Assembly: GCA_014382915.1 (NCBI GenBank)
Contig: JACNIV010000277.1
Coordinates: forward strand, 1 to 14,042
Source of the DNA: Candidatus Cloacimonadota bacterium
GTDB lineage: Bacteria > Cloacimonadota > Cloacimonadia > Cloacimonadales > TCS61
Reading direction: 5' to 3'
Length of the DNA: 14,042 nucleotides
The position numbers were made by a program, and so were the translations under genes. How positions within the stretch are numbered: the stretch's first letter is position 1; each line of letters starts with the position of its first letter. Positions 8,181 to 13,612 of the stretch are shown here, piece after piece. Under the pieces are notes generated by a model. It worked only from the letters and a program-made list of their open reading frames with translations. It had not been told where the DNA came from and made no database searches.

Positions 8181-9868
8181 AAAAATTAATTGTATTAATT
8201 ATTTTATTTTTTGCATTTTCATATTTAGTTGCTGACGAATCGCTTTATGTACCGGGGCAGCTTCTGATTCAGCTTGAAGAAAATACAAACGAGAATCTGC
8301 AACTAATCTCAGAAAACTTTTCAAATTTAAATCTAAAACCGATAAAACAACTATCACGCAGAATGCATATCTGGCTTTTTGAATATGATTCCGGTATTCT
8401 ACTAGATGAAGATATTCTGATCGCCATAAAAAGGCATTCCGTAGTAAAAGAAGCTCAATTCAATCATTATGTGCAGGAACGGGAAACATATCCCGATGAT
8501 CCTCATTTTAACAATCAATGGGCCTTGGAAAATACCGGGCAAACAGGAGGTCTTCCCGATGCCGATATAGATGCTCCCGAAGCGTGGGATTTGAATACCG
8601 GAGGTATTACAGCTTTTGGTGATACTCTGGTTGTGGCAATTGTAGATGCTGGTGCATATATTAGTCATCCCGATATTAACTGGTGGAAGAATTACGATGA
8701 GATCCCTTGTAACGGAATAGACGATGATGAAAATGGTTACATAGACGACTATGATGGCTGGAATGCCTATAACAGTACAGGTAATATAATAGCCAGCAGT
8801 CATGGTACTCATGTTTCAGGAATTGCCGGTGCTATTGGTAATAACGGACTGGGGGTTTGCGGTGTAAATTGGAATGTTCAAACAATGCCTGTAGTTGGTT
8901 CTTCAAACACGGAATCGGTGGTAGTGGAAGCTTATGGATATGTTCTGGAAATGCGCAGTATTTATAATGAAACATATGGAGATTCAGGAGCCTTTGTGGT
9001 TGCTACCAATTCTTCCTTTGGCATAAATTATGGTAACCCGGAAGATTACCCGCTCTGGAGCGCAATGTACGATTCTATGGGAGTAGCAGGAATTCTAAGT
9101 TCTGCTGCCACGATGAATATTACAGCCAATGTGGATGAAGTGGGAGATATGCCCACAGCTTGCGATAGCGATTACCTGATAACTGTTACAAATACTACCA
9201 ACCTCGATGAAAAATATGGTTCTGCCGCTTACGGTCTTACCACTATCGACTTGGGAGCTCCGGGAACTGACATCTATTCAACTGATCAATCTAACAACTA
9301 CAGTTATAAAACAGGAACTTCGATGGCAACACCACATGTAACAGGTGCGGTTGCTCTGCTTTTATCAGCTGCACCGGAAGAACTATTGATTCAATATATG
9401 GAAAATCCGGCTGAAATTGCGCTACAAATAAAAACTTATATACTTGAGGGTGTAGAAATGCTACCATCGCTTGATAGCTTGACCGTTTCCGGTGGCAGAC
9501 TGAATATTTTCAATTCGCTGGATTTAATGCTGAATTCAAATTACGCTCAAAACGAAATACCCGAATCGACAATCAGACTAAATAATTATCCTAATCCTTT
9601 TAATCCTGAAACTACTATTGTATTTAATCTTACAGCAGAGAACGCTGAGAACGCAGAGTTGGTGATTTACAATTTAAAAGGACAGAAGGTGAAAATTATT
9701 TCCCCGAGCTTGTGTCATCCTGAGTTTATCGAAGGACGAGGGCAAAACAAATACAGTGTTACATGGAATGGAACGGACGAAAACAATCAACCTATTGCTT
9801 CAGGGATTTATTTCTTTAAATTAAATATTCAAAATTCACCGGTAAAGAAGATGTTATTATTGAAATAG
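8177..9868 (+). CDS. Secreted subtilisin-family (S8) serine protease with C-terminal NYPNPFNP sorting-type domain
   Basis: This 563-residue protein has a signal peptide (MKKLIVLIILFFAFSYLVA), a propeptide-like segment to about residue 105, and an S8 peptidase domain at about 110-450. The catalytic triad is D157 (AIVDAG), H209 (SSHGTHVSG) and S382 (GTSMATPH). The oxyanion region is SAATMN with N314, not the textbook AAGN. A C-terminal domain of about 95 residues starts at NNYPNPFNPETT and ends YFFKLNIQNSPVKKMLLLK, resembling FlgD-Ig-like or T9SS type A tails that route or anchor secreted proteins. Two repeat-like peptides lie in this tail: ENAENAE at about 488-494 and SLCHPEFIEGRG at 511-522. 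The start has GGAG six bases upstream. It lies between two paralogous EEP-fold genes. The protein's target is unknown. Confidence 0.92.
   Translation: MKKLIVLIILFFAFSYLVADESLYVPGQLLIQLEENTNENLQLISENFSNLNLKPIKQLSRRMHIWLFEYDSGILLDEDILIAIKRHSVVKEAQFNHYVQERETYPDDPHFNNQWALENTGQTGGLPDADIDAPEAWDLNTGGITAFGDTLVVAIVDAGAYISHPDINWWKNYDEIPCNGIDDDENGYIDDYDGWNAYNSTGNIIASSHGTHVSGIAGAIGNNGLGVCGVNWNVQTMPVVGSSNTESVVVEAYGYVLEMRSIYNETYGDSGAFVVATNSSFGINYGNPEDYPLWSAMYDSMGVAGILSSAATMNITANVDEVGDMPTACDSDYLITVTNTTNLDEKYGSAAYGLTTIDLGAPGTDIYSTDQSNNYSYKTGTSMATPHVTGAVALLLSAAPEELLIQYMENPAEIALQIKTYILEGVEMLPSLDSLTVSGGRLNIFNSLDLMLNSNYAQNEIPESTIRLNNYPNPFNPETTIVFNLTAENAENAELVIYNLKGQKVKIISPSLCHPEFIEGRGQNKYSVTWNGTDENNQPIASGIYFFKLNIQNSPVKKMLLLK
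9638..9657 (+). repeat. In-frame 9-base tandem repeat within the protease C-terminal domain
   Basis: GAGAACGCT is followed directly by GAGAACGCA and then GAG, encoding E-N-A-E-N-A-E. Because the period is nine bases the reading frame is kept. Similar GAGAACGC-type strings are, to my recollection, frequent short repeats in some bacterial genomes; a genome search would settle that here. Confidence 0.6.
9701..9745 (+). repeat. Probable interspersed palindromic repeat fixed in-frame (CHPEFIEG type)
   Basis: The DNA contains GTCATCCTGAG ... TCGAAGGACGAG, the style of an intergenic palindromic repeat whose translation reads CHPEFIEG or CHPELVEG. Here it is in frame as SPSLCHPEFIEGRGQ in the protease's C-terminal domain. 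It replaces and lengthens by several residues the loop that normally joins the KGQKVK strand to the SVTWNG strand. The arms TCATCCT and AGGACGA pair with one mismatch. The repeat assignment rests on memory of such peptides in other genomes. Confidence 0.6.
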
Positions 9869-9872
9869 AAAT

Positions 9873-9946
9873 CGTTCGGCAGGTTCAATTTTTTAGATTG
9901 AACCGTAGCATTTCGGACGTATCAGAATGATACGTCCTGCTGAACG
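9873..9946 (+). repeat. Folded repeat, copy A: three-helix (cloverleaf-like) structure upstream of the second EEP gene
   Basis: An outer stem CGTTCGGCA/TGCTGAACG (9873-9881 with 9938-9946, one G-T wobble) encloses two hairpins. The first is GGTTCAAT/ATTGAACC with a seven-base loop (9882-9904). The second is GGACGTATCA/TGATACGTCC with a GAA loop (9915-9937). The helices abut the outer stem exactly, leaving only ten unpaired bases between the two hairpins. A related copy is at 11004-11081. It fills most of the gap between the protease stop and the next start. It could be a mobile palindromic element or a structured RNA. Confidence 0.75.
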
Positions 9947-9951
9947 CTGTG

Positions 9952-9975
9952 ATGAAAAAATGGAGAATAATATGA
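9952..9975 (+). promoter_or_regulatory. Seven-codon mini-ORF leader overlapping the start of the second EEP gene (ATGA)
   Basis: The frame MKKWRII ends in TGA at 9973-9975, overlapping the ATG at 9972. The first 14 bases, ATGAAAAAATGGAG, are identical to the leader of the protease gene at 8157, and the coding sequences then both begin ATGAAAAAATTAAT. GGAG at 9962-9965, six bases before ATG 9972, also settles the start of the following gene. Confidence 0.4.
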
Positions 9976-10883
9976 AAAAATTAATGGTTTCTTTTATCTT
10001 TATCCTTTTATCTTTTTCCTTTTTGTTCTCCGATGAACTACCCAAAATAGAATATGAAAAACTTTCTTTTGGAGAGGAGAATACTCTGGAAGTAATGACC
10101 TGGAACATCCAGAATTTTCCTAAAAGTAAATTTACAGTCGATTATACAACGGGAATAATATTAGCGGTAGATGCTGATGTTATCGGGTTGCAGGAGATCC
10201 AGAGCGATTCTGCGTTTGTGGTGTTGTTAAAAAATTTGCAGGCACAAGATCCCGAAAATAAGTGGAACGGATTCAGGGCAAAAACTAATGAATGGAAAAT
10301 GAACCTGGCATATCTCTATAAATCGGGTATGATAAATGTGGATAGTATTTACCAGATCTATCCCGATGATGAAATATATCACCAACCCTTTCCCAGAAAA
10401 CCTCTAGTACTGGAATTTACCTGTTTTGACCAGAAATTCTTTATCATAAATAATCACCTGAAAGCAATGCCGGGTGAGCAAAACATGGTACGCAGAAGAG
10501 TTGCTTGTAAACTTTTAGATGAATACATAGATAATTTTCTTCCAGAGGAAAATGTAATTTTATTGGGCGATCTGAATGACCAACTCACCGATCCTGAAGA
10601 GGAAAATGCTTTCACTGTCTTTCTGGAAGATAAACAGAATTACTATTTTGCAGATTGGAAAGTGGCAGCAGACAGTACAGCCAACTGGTCATATCCATAC
10701 TGGAAATATCGCAGTCATCTCGATCATATTCTTATATCTAACGAATTGTTTGATGAATTTGAAAAAAAGGGTTCGGAAATAAAAACGATCACCATCGATA
10801 AATTTATGGAAGGCGGAGAAGATGCGCGCTATAAATATATCACCGATCACCGACCGGTTGTATTGAAATTGGTTCTTGAATAA
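9972..10883 (+). CDS. Secreted EEP-fold (DNase I-like) phosphoesterase, paralogue of the lipoprotein at 7230-8153
   Basis: This is a 303-residue protein with a standard signal peptide, MKKLMVSFIFILLSFSFLFS, cleaved near residue 20. It keeps the whole EEP catalytic series: MTWNIQNF (N45), LQEI (E75), NNHLKA (N161-H162), LGDLND (D200, N202), SHLDHI (D251-H252) and TDHRPV (D292-H293). It is close to the upstream EEP lipoprotein along its length (shared TWNIQNFPK, GDLND, ANWSYP, SHLDHILI and NELFDEF) but lacks the lipobox cysteine, so the two copies should reach different places. I start it at 9972 on the GGAG there. An in-frame ATG at 9927 would begin inside the loop of a conserved hairpin and put 15 polar residues before the signal peptide. 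It is flanked by two copies of a folded repeat. Confidence 0.9.
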   Translation: MKKLMVSFIFILLSFSFLFSDELPKIEYEKLSFGEENTLEVMTWNIQNFPKSKFTVDYTTGIILAVDADVIGLQEIQSDSAFVVLLKNLQAQDPENKWNGFRAKTNEWKMNLAYLYKSGMINVDSIYQIYPDDEIYHQPFPRKPLVLEFTCFDQKFFIINNHLKAMPGEQNMVRRRVACKLLDEYIDNFLPEENVILLGDLNDQLTDPEEENAFTVFLEDKQNYYFADWKVAADSTANWSYPYWKYRSHLDHILISNELFDEFEKKGSEIKTITIDKFMEGGEDARYKYITDHRPVVLKLVLE

Positions 10884-11003
10884 AAACCTTGAAAACGGTC
10901 TCTTTCGGAGATATACACATCATGCCGTGAATTCTTCCTGCTTGACCTTTTCAACGATTTAGTGTAGTGAAAGAACATTGTTCTGTCTTCAGCAGGTTCA
11001 ATC
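10884..11003. other. Non-coding stretch after the second EEP gene; no gene seen
   Basis: No convincing open frame is visible. TTGAAAACGGTC (10889-10900) and GACCTTTTCAA (10944-10954) are complementary apart from one bulged base, with a long loop between. The 12-base string GCAGGTTCAATC occurs at 10992-11003 and again at 11009-11020, the second being the left arm of the folded repeat copy B. The stretch looks like repeat debris. Confidence 0.5.
10964..10987 (+). repeat. Direct repeat, copy 1, with palindromic core AGAACATTGTTCT
   Basis: This 24-base unit matches 11091-11114 at 21 of 24 positions. Its core is a palindrome, AGAACA-T-TGTTCT. The two copies lie on either side of the folded repeat copy B. 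It could be a regulator-binding site, a recombination site or part of the repeat element. Confidence 0.65.
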
Positions 11004-11081
11004 ATTTTGCAGGTTCAATCCGGCAGCTGCCGGATTGAATCGCAAGGTTTTGGACGCATCAGCATGATACGTCCTGCTAAG
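11004..11081 (+). repeat. Folded repeat, copy B: same architecture as 9873-9946, downstream of the second EEP gene
   Basis: It aligns with copy A in the same orientation through GCAGGTTCAAT, ATTGAA, a short linker, GGACG-ATCAG-ATGATACGTCCTGCT. The first hairpin is extended to a near-perfect 15-pair palindrome centred on CAGCTG (11012-11041). The second hairpin is GGACGCATCA/TGATACGTCC with one C-A mismatch (11052-11074). The outer stem is weaker than in copy A. Conserved flanks with a changed apical segment suggest a repeat family. Confidence 0.75.
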
Positions 11082-11090
11082 CAGTTTATT

Positions 11091-11114
11091 GTAGTAGCAG
11101 AACATTGTTCTGTC
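11091..11114 (+). repeat. Direct repeat, copy 2, with palindromic core AGAACATTGTTCT
   Basis: Second copy of the unit at 10964-10987. Here the palindrome extends to CAGAACA-T-TGTTCTG. The three differing positions are all just left of the core. Confidence 0.65.
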
Positions 11115-11137
11115 ATTTATGCTAGATAGGTTTTTTT
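11095..11137 (+). terminator. Possible terminator-like hairpin followed by seven T
   Basis: TAGCA (11095-11099) pairs with TGCTA (11120-11124), nested around the GAACA-T-TGTTC palindrome, and seven T follow at 11131-11137 after a six-base spacer. The spacer and the weak outer stem make this a marginal intrinsic terminator. If real it would end transcripts coming from the EEP/protease operon. Confidence 0.3.
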
Positions 11138-11460
11138 ATAAATTTATTGACATAATTTTTCATTTTAGTAAATAAAAAATTTATTTTTTATTAAATGATT
11201 TATAAAAAAATTGGCATCATCGGAAAATTGATAAGAATTTCGAAACTTGGATTTGAAAAACTAAACTGAAACAGCTCGAGATATGCGGATGTTACAAACA
11301 ACTTGGAAAATAGAAAAATTGCAAAAAAATAAAAAAATATCGAGTGGTGGCGTCACACTTTGATGATTTTTGGGATATTAATATAGAGGGTGTTGAAAAA
11401 TTTAAGATAATCTTTCTTTCAAACTTATCTTCTTAAACGATAAGTGAAGCAGGAGGAAAA
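11138..11460. other. Very AT-rich leader region upstream of the tandem FG-GAP genes; no gene seen
   Basis: No credible coding frame is visible in these 320 bases. A TTGACA hexamer at 11147-11152 has no good -10 partner at normal spacing. A hairpin ACTTATC/GATAAGT with a nine-base loop (11423-11445) lies directly upstream of the strong Shine-Dalgarno AGGAGG (11451-11456) of the first FG-GAP gene. It could affect ribosome access. Any promoter for the FG-GAP pair must lie here or further upstream. Confidence 0.5.
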
Positions 11461-12927
11461 ATGAGATATCTAGTTTTATTATTTATTGTATTAGTAATTT
11501 TTACTACAACCTTTGCTGCTGAATACACTGTACCCCGTGCCGCATATTCTGTTTATGCAGAAGATCTGGATTTAGATGGTGATAAAGATATTGTGGTGGG
11601 ACATTTATATAATAGTTCAACAAATTGGACAGGGATTACAACATTAGAAAATATTAATGCGGAATTTTCAAATATAGATAGTTTTTACTTAAATGGACAA
11701 CATAGAGATCTTTGTATAGAAAAAATTGATAATAATAATGACTTTGATTTAATTACTCAATACTATAATGGAACAAATTCTCAGATAGGCATTCTTTTTG
11801 ATTTTTATTATAACCAAAGTAATTTAACAGCTTATAACATTTCAGATTATGCTGATGATATCACAAATGGCGATATAGACAACGACAACGACATAGATAT
11901 AATTGTAGCATCAAATAACGGTCAGTTTTGGAGTGTATTATATAATAATGGAACGGGTCAATTTTCATCACCTGAATATCATTATGTAGATTATCATCCT
12001 AGCGGTATTGCTTGTGGAGATTTGAATAACGATGGACGAGATGATGTTGTTGTCTGCGGTCTAAAATTAGAAGTATATCTGAGTTATCCTGGTAGTTTTC
12101 AATATATTTTAGTAGTAGATGAACTTTTTTATATGTGTAATGTAAAAATTGCAGATATTGATAGTGATGGAGATAATGATATTATAGCAGCAGATTGGGG
12201 AATTCCAGGATCACCCAAAAGAGTTTTAGTATATTCAAATGATGGGAATTGTAATTTTGACCTTACATACAGTAAATGGATAGATGAAGCAATGGCAGAA
12301 ATCTTTATTTCTGATCTAAATAATGATATTTTCCCGGATATTATTTATAATGTCTCCTATTCTTATCCTAATTCTGTATATGAAAAAACTCACACTTATA
12401 TTTTATATAATAATGGGAATAATACATTACAGGATCCGGTAAATTATCAAACTTATTTAGGTAATTCAGAATACATAACAAGTTTTAAGTCTTTTGCGGC
12501 TGATGTAGATAATAATAGTTGGAATGATATTATTACAGTCAATTATAGTTATAATGAAAGCTCTATCCATATCCTCTATAATGACAGTACCGGCAATTTT
12601 ATAGAGGAACCGCAGGTGGGAATAAGTGGAGAATGTATAATGGATAATGAAAAATGTATAATGTGCAATTACCCTAATCCTTTTAACATAAGCACAGCAA
12701 TCAAGTTTTCAATAAAAGAGCCAGGATTTGTAGAATTAAAAATTTATGATATAAAAGGAAGGTTAATTAAACTATTAATTAACCAAAAACTGAAAGGAGG
12801 TGAACACAATGTTATCTGGAATGGAAAAGATGGAAATAATAAATGTTGCAGTTCCGGGATTTACTTGATGAATTTGAAATTGAATGGAAAAAGTAGAAAA
12901 ACAAGTAAAGTGATTTTATTGAAATAA
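11461..12927 (+). CDS. Secreted FG-GAP/VCBS-repeat protein with C-terminal NYPNPFN sorting-type domain
   Basis: The 488 residues start with signal peptide MRYLVLLFIVLVIFTTTFA. Six or seven calcium-binding FG-GAP/VCBS-type blades follow, each with a D-x-D-x-D-G/N-x-x-D-I core: DLDLDGDKDIVVG (35-47), KIDNNNDFDLIT (88-99), DIDNDNDIDIIVA (138-150), DLNNDGRDDVVV (187-198), DIDSDGDNDIIAA (232-244), DLNNDIFPDIIY (285-296) and DVDNNSWNDIITV (348-360). This suggests an integrin-like beta-propeller. The tail from NYPNPFNIST (403) to KVILLK matches the protease tail. Just before it, ECIMDNEKCIMC is a repeat-derived-looking linker. AGGAGG precedes the ATG. The function is probably adhesion or surface binding; no enzymatic domain is visible. 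It is tandemly paired with the next gene 13 bases on. Confidence 0.88.
   Translation: MRYLVLLFIVLVIFTTTFAAEYTVPRAAYSVYAEDLDLDGDKDIVVGHLYNSSTNWTGITTLENINAEFSNIDSFYLNGQHRDLCIEKIDNNNDFDLITQYYNGTNSQIGILFDFYYNQSNLTAYNISDYADDITNGDIDNDNDIDIIVASNNGQFWSVLYNNGTGQFSSPEYHYVDYHPSGIACGDLNNDGRDDVVVCGLKLEVYLSYPGSFQYILVVDELFYMCNVKIADIDSDGDNDIIAADWGIPGSPKRVLVYSNDGNCNFDLTYSKWIDEAMAEIFISDLNNDIFPDIIYNVSYSYPNSVYEKTHTYILYNNGNNTLQDPVNYQTYLGNSEYITSFKSFAADVDNNSWNDIITVNYSYNESSIHILYNDSTGNFIEEPQVGISGECIMDNEKCIMCNYPNPFNISTAIKFSIKEPGFVELKIYDIKGRLIKLLINQKLKGGEHNVIWNGKDGNNKCCSSGIYLMNLKLNGKSRKTSKVILLK
11884..11988 (+). repeat. Near-identical 105-base patch shared with 13391-13495 (tandem paralogues)
   Basis: The two FG-GAP genes match here at all but two of 105 positions, third codon positions included, in blocks of 48 and 46 identical bases. 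Sequence on both sides, in the same genes, is much more diverged. It encodes most of one FG-GAP blade and its loop (NDIDIIVASNNGQFW...). Confidence 0.8.
12632..12663 (+). repeat. Short in-frame direct repeat AATGTATAATG in the linker before the sorting domain
   Basis: AATGTATAATG occurs at 12632-12642 and 12653-12663, separated by GATAATGAAA. It is translated as CIMDNEKCIM directly before NYPNPFN. The style resembles NEQ/NEK-type low-complexity repeats, suggesting a repeat absorbed into the coding frame. Confidence 0.55.
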
Positions 12928-12940
12928 CTTGGAGGAGAAA

Positions 12941-13612
12941 ATGAGATATATAATTTTATTTTTTTTATCGTTAATTATTTTTACTCCCACCTTTGCTGCC
13001 GAATACATCGTTCCCCGTGCTGCTTATTCTGTTTATGCAGAAGACTTAGATTTAGATGGAGATAAGGATATTGTGGTGGGTCATAAATATAATTCCCAAA
13101 CGGATTGGGGAGGTGTATCAATTTTAGGAAATAATGGAAATGGTGAATTTGAACTTATTGATTCATTATTTTTTAATAATGGATTTGCTTATGTTAATGG
13201 TAATTATATTGATAATGACAATTATATAGACATTTTCGGTCAATATGTGTCAGATGATCCTGCACCGATAAATAACAGATTCATTGGAATAATTTATAAT
13301 TATGGATACCAAAGTTTTAATAATATAATCTACTTTCCATTAAATACTAGAGAACCAGTGCCTGATATAACAAGTGGTGACATAGACAATGACAACGACA
13401 TAGATATAATTGTAGCATCAAATAACGGTCAGTTTTGGGGTGTATTATGTAATAATGGAACGGGTCAATTTTCATCACCTGAATATCATTATGTAACAGG
13501 CTATTATCCTGTTGATATCGCATGTGGTAATTTAAATGAGGATAATAGAAATGATATTGCAATTTGCGCCCAGAAAACAGAGGTTTACTTTAGTTATGAA
13601 ACAGGTTTTTAA
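12941..13612 (+). CDS. FG-GAP/VCBS-repeat secreted protein, paralogue of 11461-12927, cut short by an in-frame TAA
   Basis: The ATG at 12941 is preceded by GGAGGAG and gives signal peptide MRYIILFFLSLIIFTPTFA, nearly the same as the upstream gene; an in-frame TTG at 12929 is unlikely. The first 223 residues follow the paralogue through EYIVPRAAYSVYAEDLDLDG, a diverged middle, DIDNDNDIDIIVASNNGQFW and EVYFSYETGF, then stop at TAA 13610-13612. The reading frame continues directly beyond with more FG-GAP blades. As it stands the product would have only the first few blades and no sorting domain, so a stable exported protein is doubtful. It is 13 bases downstream of the first FG-GAP gene and probably shares its transcript. 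Confidence 0.75.
   Translation: MRYIILFFLSLIIFTPTFAAEYIVPRAAYSVYAEDLDLDGDKDIVVGHKYNSQTDWGGVSILGNNGNGEFELIDSLFFNNGFAYVNGNYIDNDNYIDIFGQYVSDDPAPINNRFIGIIYNYGYQSFNNIIYFPLNTREPVPDITSGDIDNDNDIDIIVASNNGQFWGVLCNNGTGQFSSPEYHYVTGYYPVDIACGNLNEDNRNDIAICAQKTEVYFSYETGF

Follow-up and report, generated by a model that had tools for sequence, protein, structure and literature searches.

A common view of small bacterial repeats is that they are parasites tolerated close to the ends of genes. MIRUs stand in sense orientation in operons. Stem mismatches are needed in E. coli REPs (PMC8266576), GYAG variants of the REP tag are reported and REPs between co-directional genes keep close to the upstream gene's 3' end while their distance to the next one varies (PMC3733652), and REPIN/REP abundance is usually over 100 copies per genome (PMC2817692). 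The MIRU is a short repeat at gene junctions adjoining start codons (PMC12548453), the effect of ERIC on mRNA is orientation-dependent (PMC2229807), and about 61–63% of pneumococcal repeats lie on the leading strand, with over-representation between convergent genes (PMC3049150).

The window analyzed here (14,042 nt) makes up all of contig C277 in the draft genome of a Candidatus Cloacimonadota bacterium (G000), which has 1.98 Mb and a completeness of 78%. It holds two copies, A and B, of a small folded element on either side of an EEP gene, and shorter palindromic repeats around copy B:

9879–9940, + strand: element copy A, short hairpin-1 type (covariance model R1, 71.2 bits; orthologous copy in G014:C89, locus L154)
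9882–9904, + strand: hairpin 1 of copy A (from fold and sequence)
9915–9937, + strand: hairpin 2 of copy A, with T-A where the family usually has a C.A mismatch
9972–10883, + strand: second EEP gene (Exo_endo_phos; Pfam PF03372, 5e-14), outside the element and bracketed by A and B
10964–10987, + strand: left GTAG-tagged REP, palindrome AGAACATTGTTCT; homologues flank Y1 transposase genes in G012:C255 and G032:C46
10992–11003, + strand: probable truncated start of another element copy, directly 5' of copy B, GCAGGTTCAATC (read from the sequence)
11009–11077, + strand: element copy B, long hairpin-1 type (covariance model R1, 91.3 bits)
11012–11041, + strand: hairpin 1 of copy B (from fold and sequence)
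11052–11074, + strand: hairpin 2 of copy B, with the conserved C.A mismatch
11091–11114, + strand: right GTAG-tagged REP

Copy A is located between a subtilase gene and the second EEP gene, and copy B between the second EEP gene and an FG-GAP gene, each in the sense of both neighbors. Copy A is overlapped by the called start of the gene that follows, for which 9972 is the likely start. The first-pass annotation had described the two copies as lying in the same orientation on both sides of the second EEP gene, which proved correct, as did their places; the covariance model trims its copy B by a few flanking bases. Its closing helix of copy A exists as a 10-bp pairing (CGTTCGGCAG/CTGCTGAACG) that includes one G.T and is therefore not quite the exact junction described; across the family GCA/TGC alone is conserved. 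Single-stranded DNA folds around A and B had z values of -6.7 and -6.3, respectively, with none of 200 shuffles equally stable, and in the best fold of B some of the linker is paired too. Hairpin 1 has an apex of the short type in A and of the long CCGGCAGCTGCCGG type in B.

Other repeats were observed in the neighboring genes. Inside the subtilase gene, the stretch TGTCATCCTGAGTTTATCGAAGGACGAGG (9703–9745) is coding and reads CHPEFIEGRG, part of the region with a sorting-tail match; it resembles a palindromic repeat common in uncultured genomes. Two tandem FG-GAP genes (11461–13612) share a 133-nt stretch with 95% identity (11856–11988 and 13363–13495), whereas another shared stretch is 79% identical, which suggests gene conversion between them. 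The second of these genes has a stop near 13612, and similar coding sequence continues beyond it.

A covariance model built from 23 copies was searched in 40 genomes of the same taxonomic family. Matches at E 0.01 or better were found in 20 of the 40 genomes and six of the 18 genera. The 99 matches in 85 fetched sources corresponded to 96 places after merging second-strand matches, 85 of which were strong copies (44.8 bits or more) distributed over 17 of the 40 genomes with 1 to 11 per genome. The element is 61–70 nt long, and the genes flanking its copies belong to many families. Besides A and B, near-full copies occur at three more places in the window genome (C147, C166, and C257), and C107 has a copy that is damaged, so the search of the genome and its relatives proposed by the first-pass annotation found further copies in both. 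The exact hairpin-2 pattern, which misses variants, matched 21 stretches over 84,980 named species genomes, a set from which records of the window genome may be absent. The records were Cloacimonadota, Cloacimonadales, or Ca. Tenebribacter, except for three labelled Armatimonadetes/Armatimonadota that are apparently G008:C70, G009:C213, and G009:C234, which are placed in the same family. Among 12 of 644 matching literature titles, none concerned Cloacimonadota repeats, and we make no claim that print holds none.

The element runs from GCA through hairpin 1, a linker of roughly 10 nt, and hairpin 2 to TGC. Hairpin 1 reads GGTTCAWTC...GATTGAACC, with a long (CCGGCAG.TGCCGG) or a short apex, and hairpin 2 reads GGACGCATCA-NNA-TGATACGTCC. 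The two unlike hairpins face each other and GCAG precedes each on its own strand (GCAG-hairpin 1 ... hairpin 2-CTGC), placing the tag at both ends, where it is able to pair as GCA/TGC. A C.A mismatch in hairpin 2 occurred in 86 of the 96 places, and T.T in hairpin 1 in 40 of 96. The 99-row alignment, which was fitted to the model itself, contained 82 cells with two-sided pair changes; shuffling gave 14.9 on average and never as many in 500 trials, and slid-structure controls reached at most 25 cells. By the same measure the signal was weaker in the first 23 copies (4 cells, with 25 of 500 shuffles as high). The stems are held by compensatory changes. This bears out the earlier suggestion that a differing hairpin-1 apex on kept stems reflects selection on structure, and, together with the copies of the family, the view of the repeats as structured dispersed units of REP-like architecture. 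Counts of G.U versus A.C were 47:22 in hairpin 1 and 29:31 in hairpin 2; as the G.U excess is limited to hairpin 1, this mixed asymmetry gives no clear sign that selection acts on the RNA strand.

Variants of the layout were also seen. Sibling elements at L180:1842-1903, L183:2562-2622, L187:2587-2648, and L188:2491-2552 have other hairpin sequences, the identical layout, and a similar linker, suggesting a modular superfamily. At a nifX-like junction (L067:3006-3073 and L164:2542-2602) near-identical flanks in two genomes enclose a long and a short hairpin-1 apex, respectively, which points to a swap of the apex within a resident copy.

The genomic place of the element was determined from heuristic gene calls. 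None of the 85 strong copies was placed inside a gene; 68 were sense to both neighbors, seven antisense to both, and six and four were mixed. Merging sites on both flanking families gave 64 sites (51, 6, 6, and 1; sense to antisense 51:6, p 6e-10), and merging on either flank gave 36 (29, 5, 1, and 1; 29:5, p 4e-5). The distance from the 68 sense copies to the downstream called start had a median of 48 nt (quartiles 27 and 83). Where this distance was 15 to 120 nt (57 cases), a ribosome-binding-like motif lay in the interval in 55, a proportion that is partly circular because the gene caller rewards such motifs. Copies scoring 66.3 bits or more comprised 40 sense and no antisense, compared with 28 and seven among the lower-scoring ones, where all seven antisense copies had 66.2 bits or less and one of them (L183) scored alike on both strands. 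Six of the 11 weak places dropped from the count were viewed later and were antisense (three) or mixed (three), with no sense/sense case. The bias weakens among poor matches and is thus a property of the well-kept copies. This would be expected from maintenance of sense copies, or from the presence of other repeats among the weak matches.

Three comparisons bear on this bias. GTAG REPs in the same genomes, a small control, were sense in six and antisense in four of 23 sites, the others being mixed, intragenic, or at contig ends, with several sites neighboring each other; the difference from the element had a Fisher p of 0.02 raw and 0.035 with merged sites. Co-directional pairs made up 532 of the 611 adjacent gene pairs in 40 stretches surrounding elements and accounted for 71% of intergenic bases, and against this mostly co-directional background the enrichment in co-directional gaps is modest, making orientation the stronger result. 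Intergenic GC skew, a rough replication-strand proxy tallied by eye, had an absolute value of 0.08 or more at 23 copies, whose orientation agreed with it in 13 and disagreed in 10. For 17 copies in skewed stretches with both neighbors on one strand, skew and gene strand coincided in 17 of 17, so that transcription and replication direction are inseparable there; in weaker-skew stretches the bias persisted, with 18 sense versus four antisense.

Filled and empty versions of the same junctions were found. The ybaB-recR junction contained the element in two of 30 recR loci, both from Tenebribacter, and a short gap without the element in the six other Tenebribacter genomes of the sample. The element was located upstream of PrsW genes in five genomes; at the PrsW junction, stop and start are three bases apart in G035, while the junction is filled in G031 and the ends of the upstream proteins match. 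At a divergent-gene site common to two genera, the element was 84–89% identical, compared with 38–41% for the aligned flanks (gaps counted as differences). These filled and empty sites, together with the site conserved across genera, indicate that copies come and go and that some are kept for long. Of the terminal inverted repeats and target duplications that mark a MITE of a DDE transposon (ERIC, NEMIS, or RUP type), the element has a terminal match limited to its GCAG/CTGC ends, and the empty sites are too eroded for exact insertion boundaries and target duplications to be read.

The 24-base direct repeats around copy B are indeed a second palindromic repeat, as first annotated, and extend to 30 nt with 87% identity (10958–10987 and 11085–11114). 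With up to two mismatches, GTAGTNNNAGAACATTGTTCT occurred 48 times in 17 of the 40 genomes, compared with nine occurrences of a reversed control pattern. A Y1 gene in G032:C46 is flanked by GTAG REPs on either side. The Y1 gene of G012:C255 is preceded by two pairs whose partner is of the GTAGTGAYAG type and followed by a single pair carrying a variant palindrome, AGATCGATGATCT. Given the GTAG tag, the palindrome, and these homologues, the repeats around B are ordinary GTAG REPs, with no departure from the known kind seen. In a genome of the same genus, two GTAG REPs lie directly 3' of an EEP gene (G010:C226:1531-1623).

The two inward hairpins, the outer GCAG tags, and the conserved mismatch are also what a true REPIN or BIME would have, mobilized in trans by a RAYT or an IS200/IS605 transposase resident in the genome, in which case the sense bias would come from insertion into a single strand exposed in replication or transcription. 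Y1 matches (PF01797) are common (215 in total, in 36 of 40 genomes), and two of 170 proteins flanking the element were Y1-like (G000:C107 and G030:C77), with the element on one side of each. However, the 79 Y1 loci sampled from the 215, both IS200/IS605-like and RAYT-like, had no clear element match (five weak ones, 13.9–17.4 bits), and beyond the two one-sided neighbors no cognate transposase gene flanked by the main element was found in these 79 loci. Per 100 kb, Y1 loci had more GTAG and GGAG hairpins than element contigs did (9.0 versus 3.7 and 4.5 versus 2.0, respectively) but not more GCAG hairpins (1.4 versus 2.3, the latter figure being raised because these contigs were chosen for the element). 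G031 has nine strong copies and one Y1 match, no genome exceeds 11 strong copies, and the correlation between element and Y1 counts per genome was weak (rho 0.27, p 0.09). We consider mobilization by such a resident enzyme doubtful. The C107 copy beside its Y1 gene was considered as a RAYT/REP pair in its own right, and this pairing was not supported by the wider sample of Y1 loci.

A fixed cis-regulatory RNA, either a riboswitch or a leader controlling particular genes, would be sense-oriented, placed before starts, and subject to covariation, and one site is conserved across genera; it is nevertheless improbable given flanking genes of many families, orthologous sites that are empty, and an Rfam 15 search with no gathering-level match over the window, whose permissive scan of 9850–11150 likewise gave no overlap with A or B. 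The first-pass annotation had suggested a possible role for the repeats in copying or moving the second EEP gene. As the ends of a composite mobile unit they would bracket the gene in the same orientation, as A and B do, and neighboring pairs in the fetched loci shared orientation in 13 of 13 cases (the A/B pair included); 22 of the 85 copies had a neighbor within 5 kb compared with 2.2 expected (maximum 12 in 20,000 simulations). The same orientation is, however, expected if each copy follows its operon. EEP matches occurred in 37 of 40 genomes; in 23 of the 40, from 13 of 18 genera, two matches share a contig at a spacing of up to about 3 kb, directly adjacent or with one gene's room between them, whereas the element was present at two of the 30 best EEP2-like loci, only in the window genome and G014. 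The gene pair is thus older than these copies, and the proposal, very improbable in general, is refuted for the EEP gene. In G014, copy A is orthologous and a stretch with a GTAG REP and a truncated element follows the first rather than the second EEP gene, so that this junction must have been rearranged. Integron attC sites are folded, strand-specific, and set in gene orientation, which speaks for this reading; against it, an integron integrase (TIGR02249) exceeded the cut-off in only two of 40 genomes (G003 and G035, in pieces in the latter), G003 has no strong element copy, and ordinary cellular genes such as ybaB-recR flank the element, leaving attC-like recombination sites hardly credible. 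The G003 integrase (G003:C128:535-1479) is a full one of the integron type and scores above the curated threshold.

The explanation we favor, and regard as fairly probable, is a lineage-specific family of miniature non-autonomous interspersed elements in one Cloacimonadota family, REPIN-like and co-transcribed between cistrons as structured RNA, with a presumed mobilizing enzyme and a presumed RNA function. Being located between co-directional genes in the sense of transcription, the copies should be co-transcribed. A well-kept copy lies, in sense orientation, after the upstream stop codon and ahead of the start region of the next co-directional gene, and should fold within the polycistronic mRNA as a spacer of two hairpins. 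The element may move, or may have moved, as a DNA hairpin of which one strand is processed by an enzyme, and sense copies may be tolerated or kept because their RNA separates the neighboring cistrons, either by protecting the end of the upstream message or by loosening translational coupling. By analogy, any effect on mRNA would be like the orientation-dependent one of ERIC. We offer tentatively, as a rather unlikely extension, that the element is a portable intercistronic RNA module, that is, a mobile two-hairpin element that was spread to junctions within operons and is kept only in sense, whose RNA uncouples or insulates cistrons and whose strand-specific spread is of a non-RAYT, non-IS200 kind, possibly acting on the non-template strand or on the transcript. 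With well-kept copies in sense ahead of the next gene and stems held by compensatory change, these elements offer a natural experiment on how an inserted RNA structure changes operon expression. They also add a repeat family for the annotation of Cloacimonadota genomes and pose the question of which agent spreads a REPIN-like element that has no RAYT to match.

Among known systems, the element is like REPINs and BIMEs in its inverted two-hairpin arrangement, outer tetranucleotide tags, extragenic location, conserved stem mismatch, and heterodimer of unlike hairpins, but differs in its GCAG tag, in that no cognate RAYT was found, and in having 1–11 strong copies per element-bearing genome, as counted in draft genomes. 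In contrast to REPs as described in PMC3733652, it is strongly sense-oriented and lies on the 5' side of genes. It shares with ERIC, Correia/NEMIS, and the pneumococcal BOX, RUP, and SPRITE the character of a small folded interspersed repeat, some of which are co-transcribed and act on mRNA (PMC2229807, PMC3049150); such repeats are mostly longer and several have longer terminal inverted repeats (PMC2229807). The leaning of the pneumococcal repeats toward the leading strand and toward convergent genes (PMC3049150) is also unlike this family. In its place at gene junctions and its sense orientation the element is like MIRUs; MIRUs, however, carry an ORF coupled to the next gene, whereas the one full copy checked frame by frame, G000:C166, has stops in all three forward frames.
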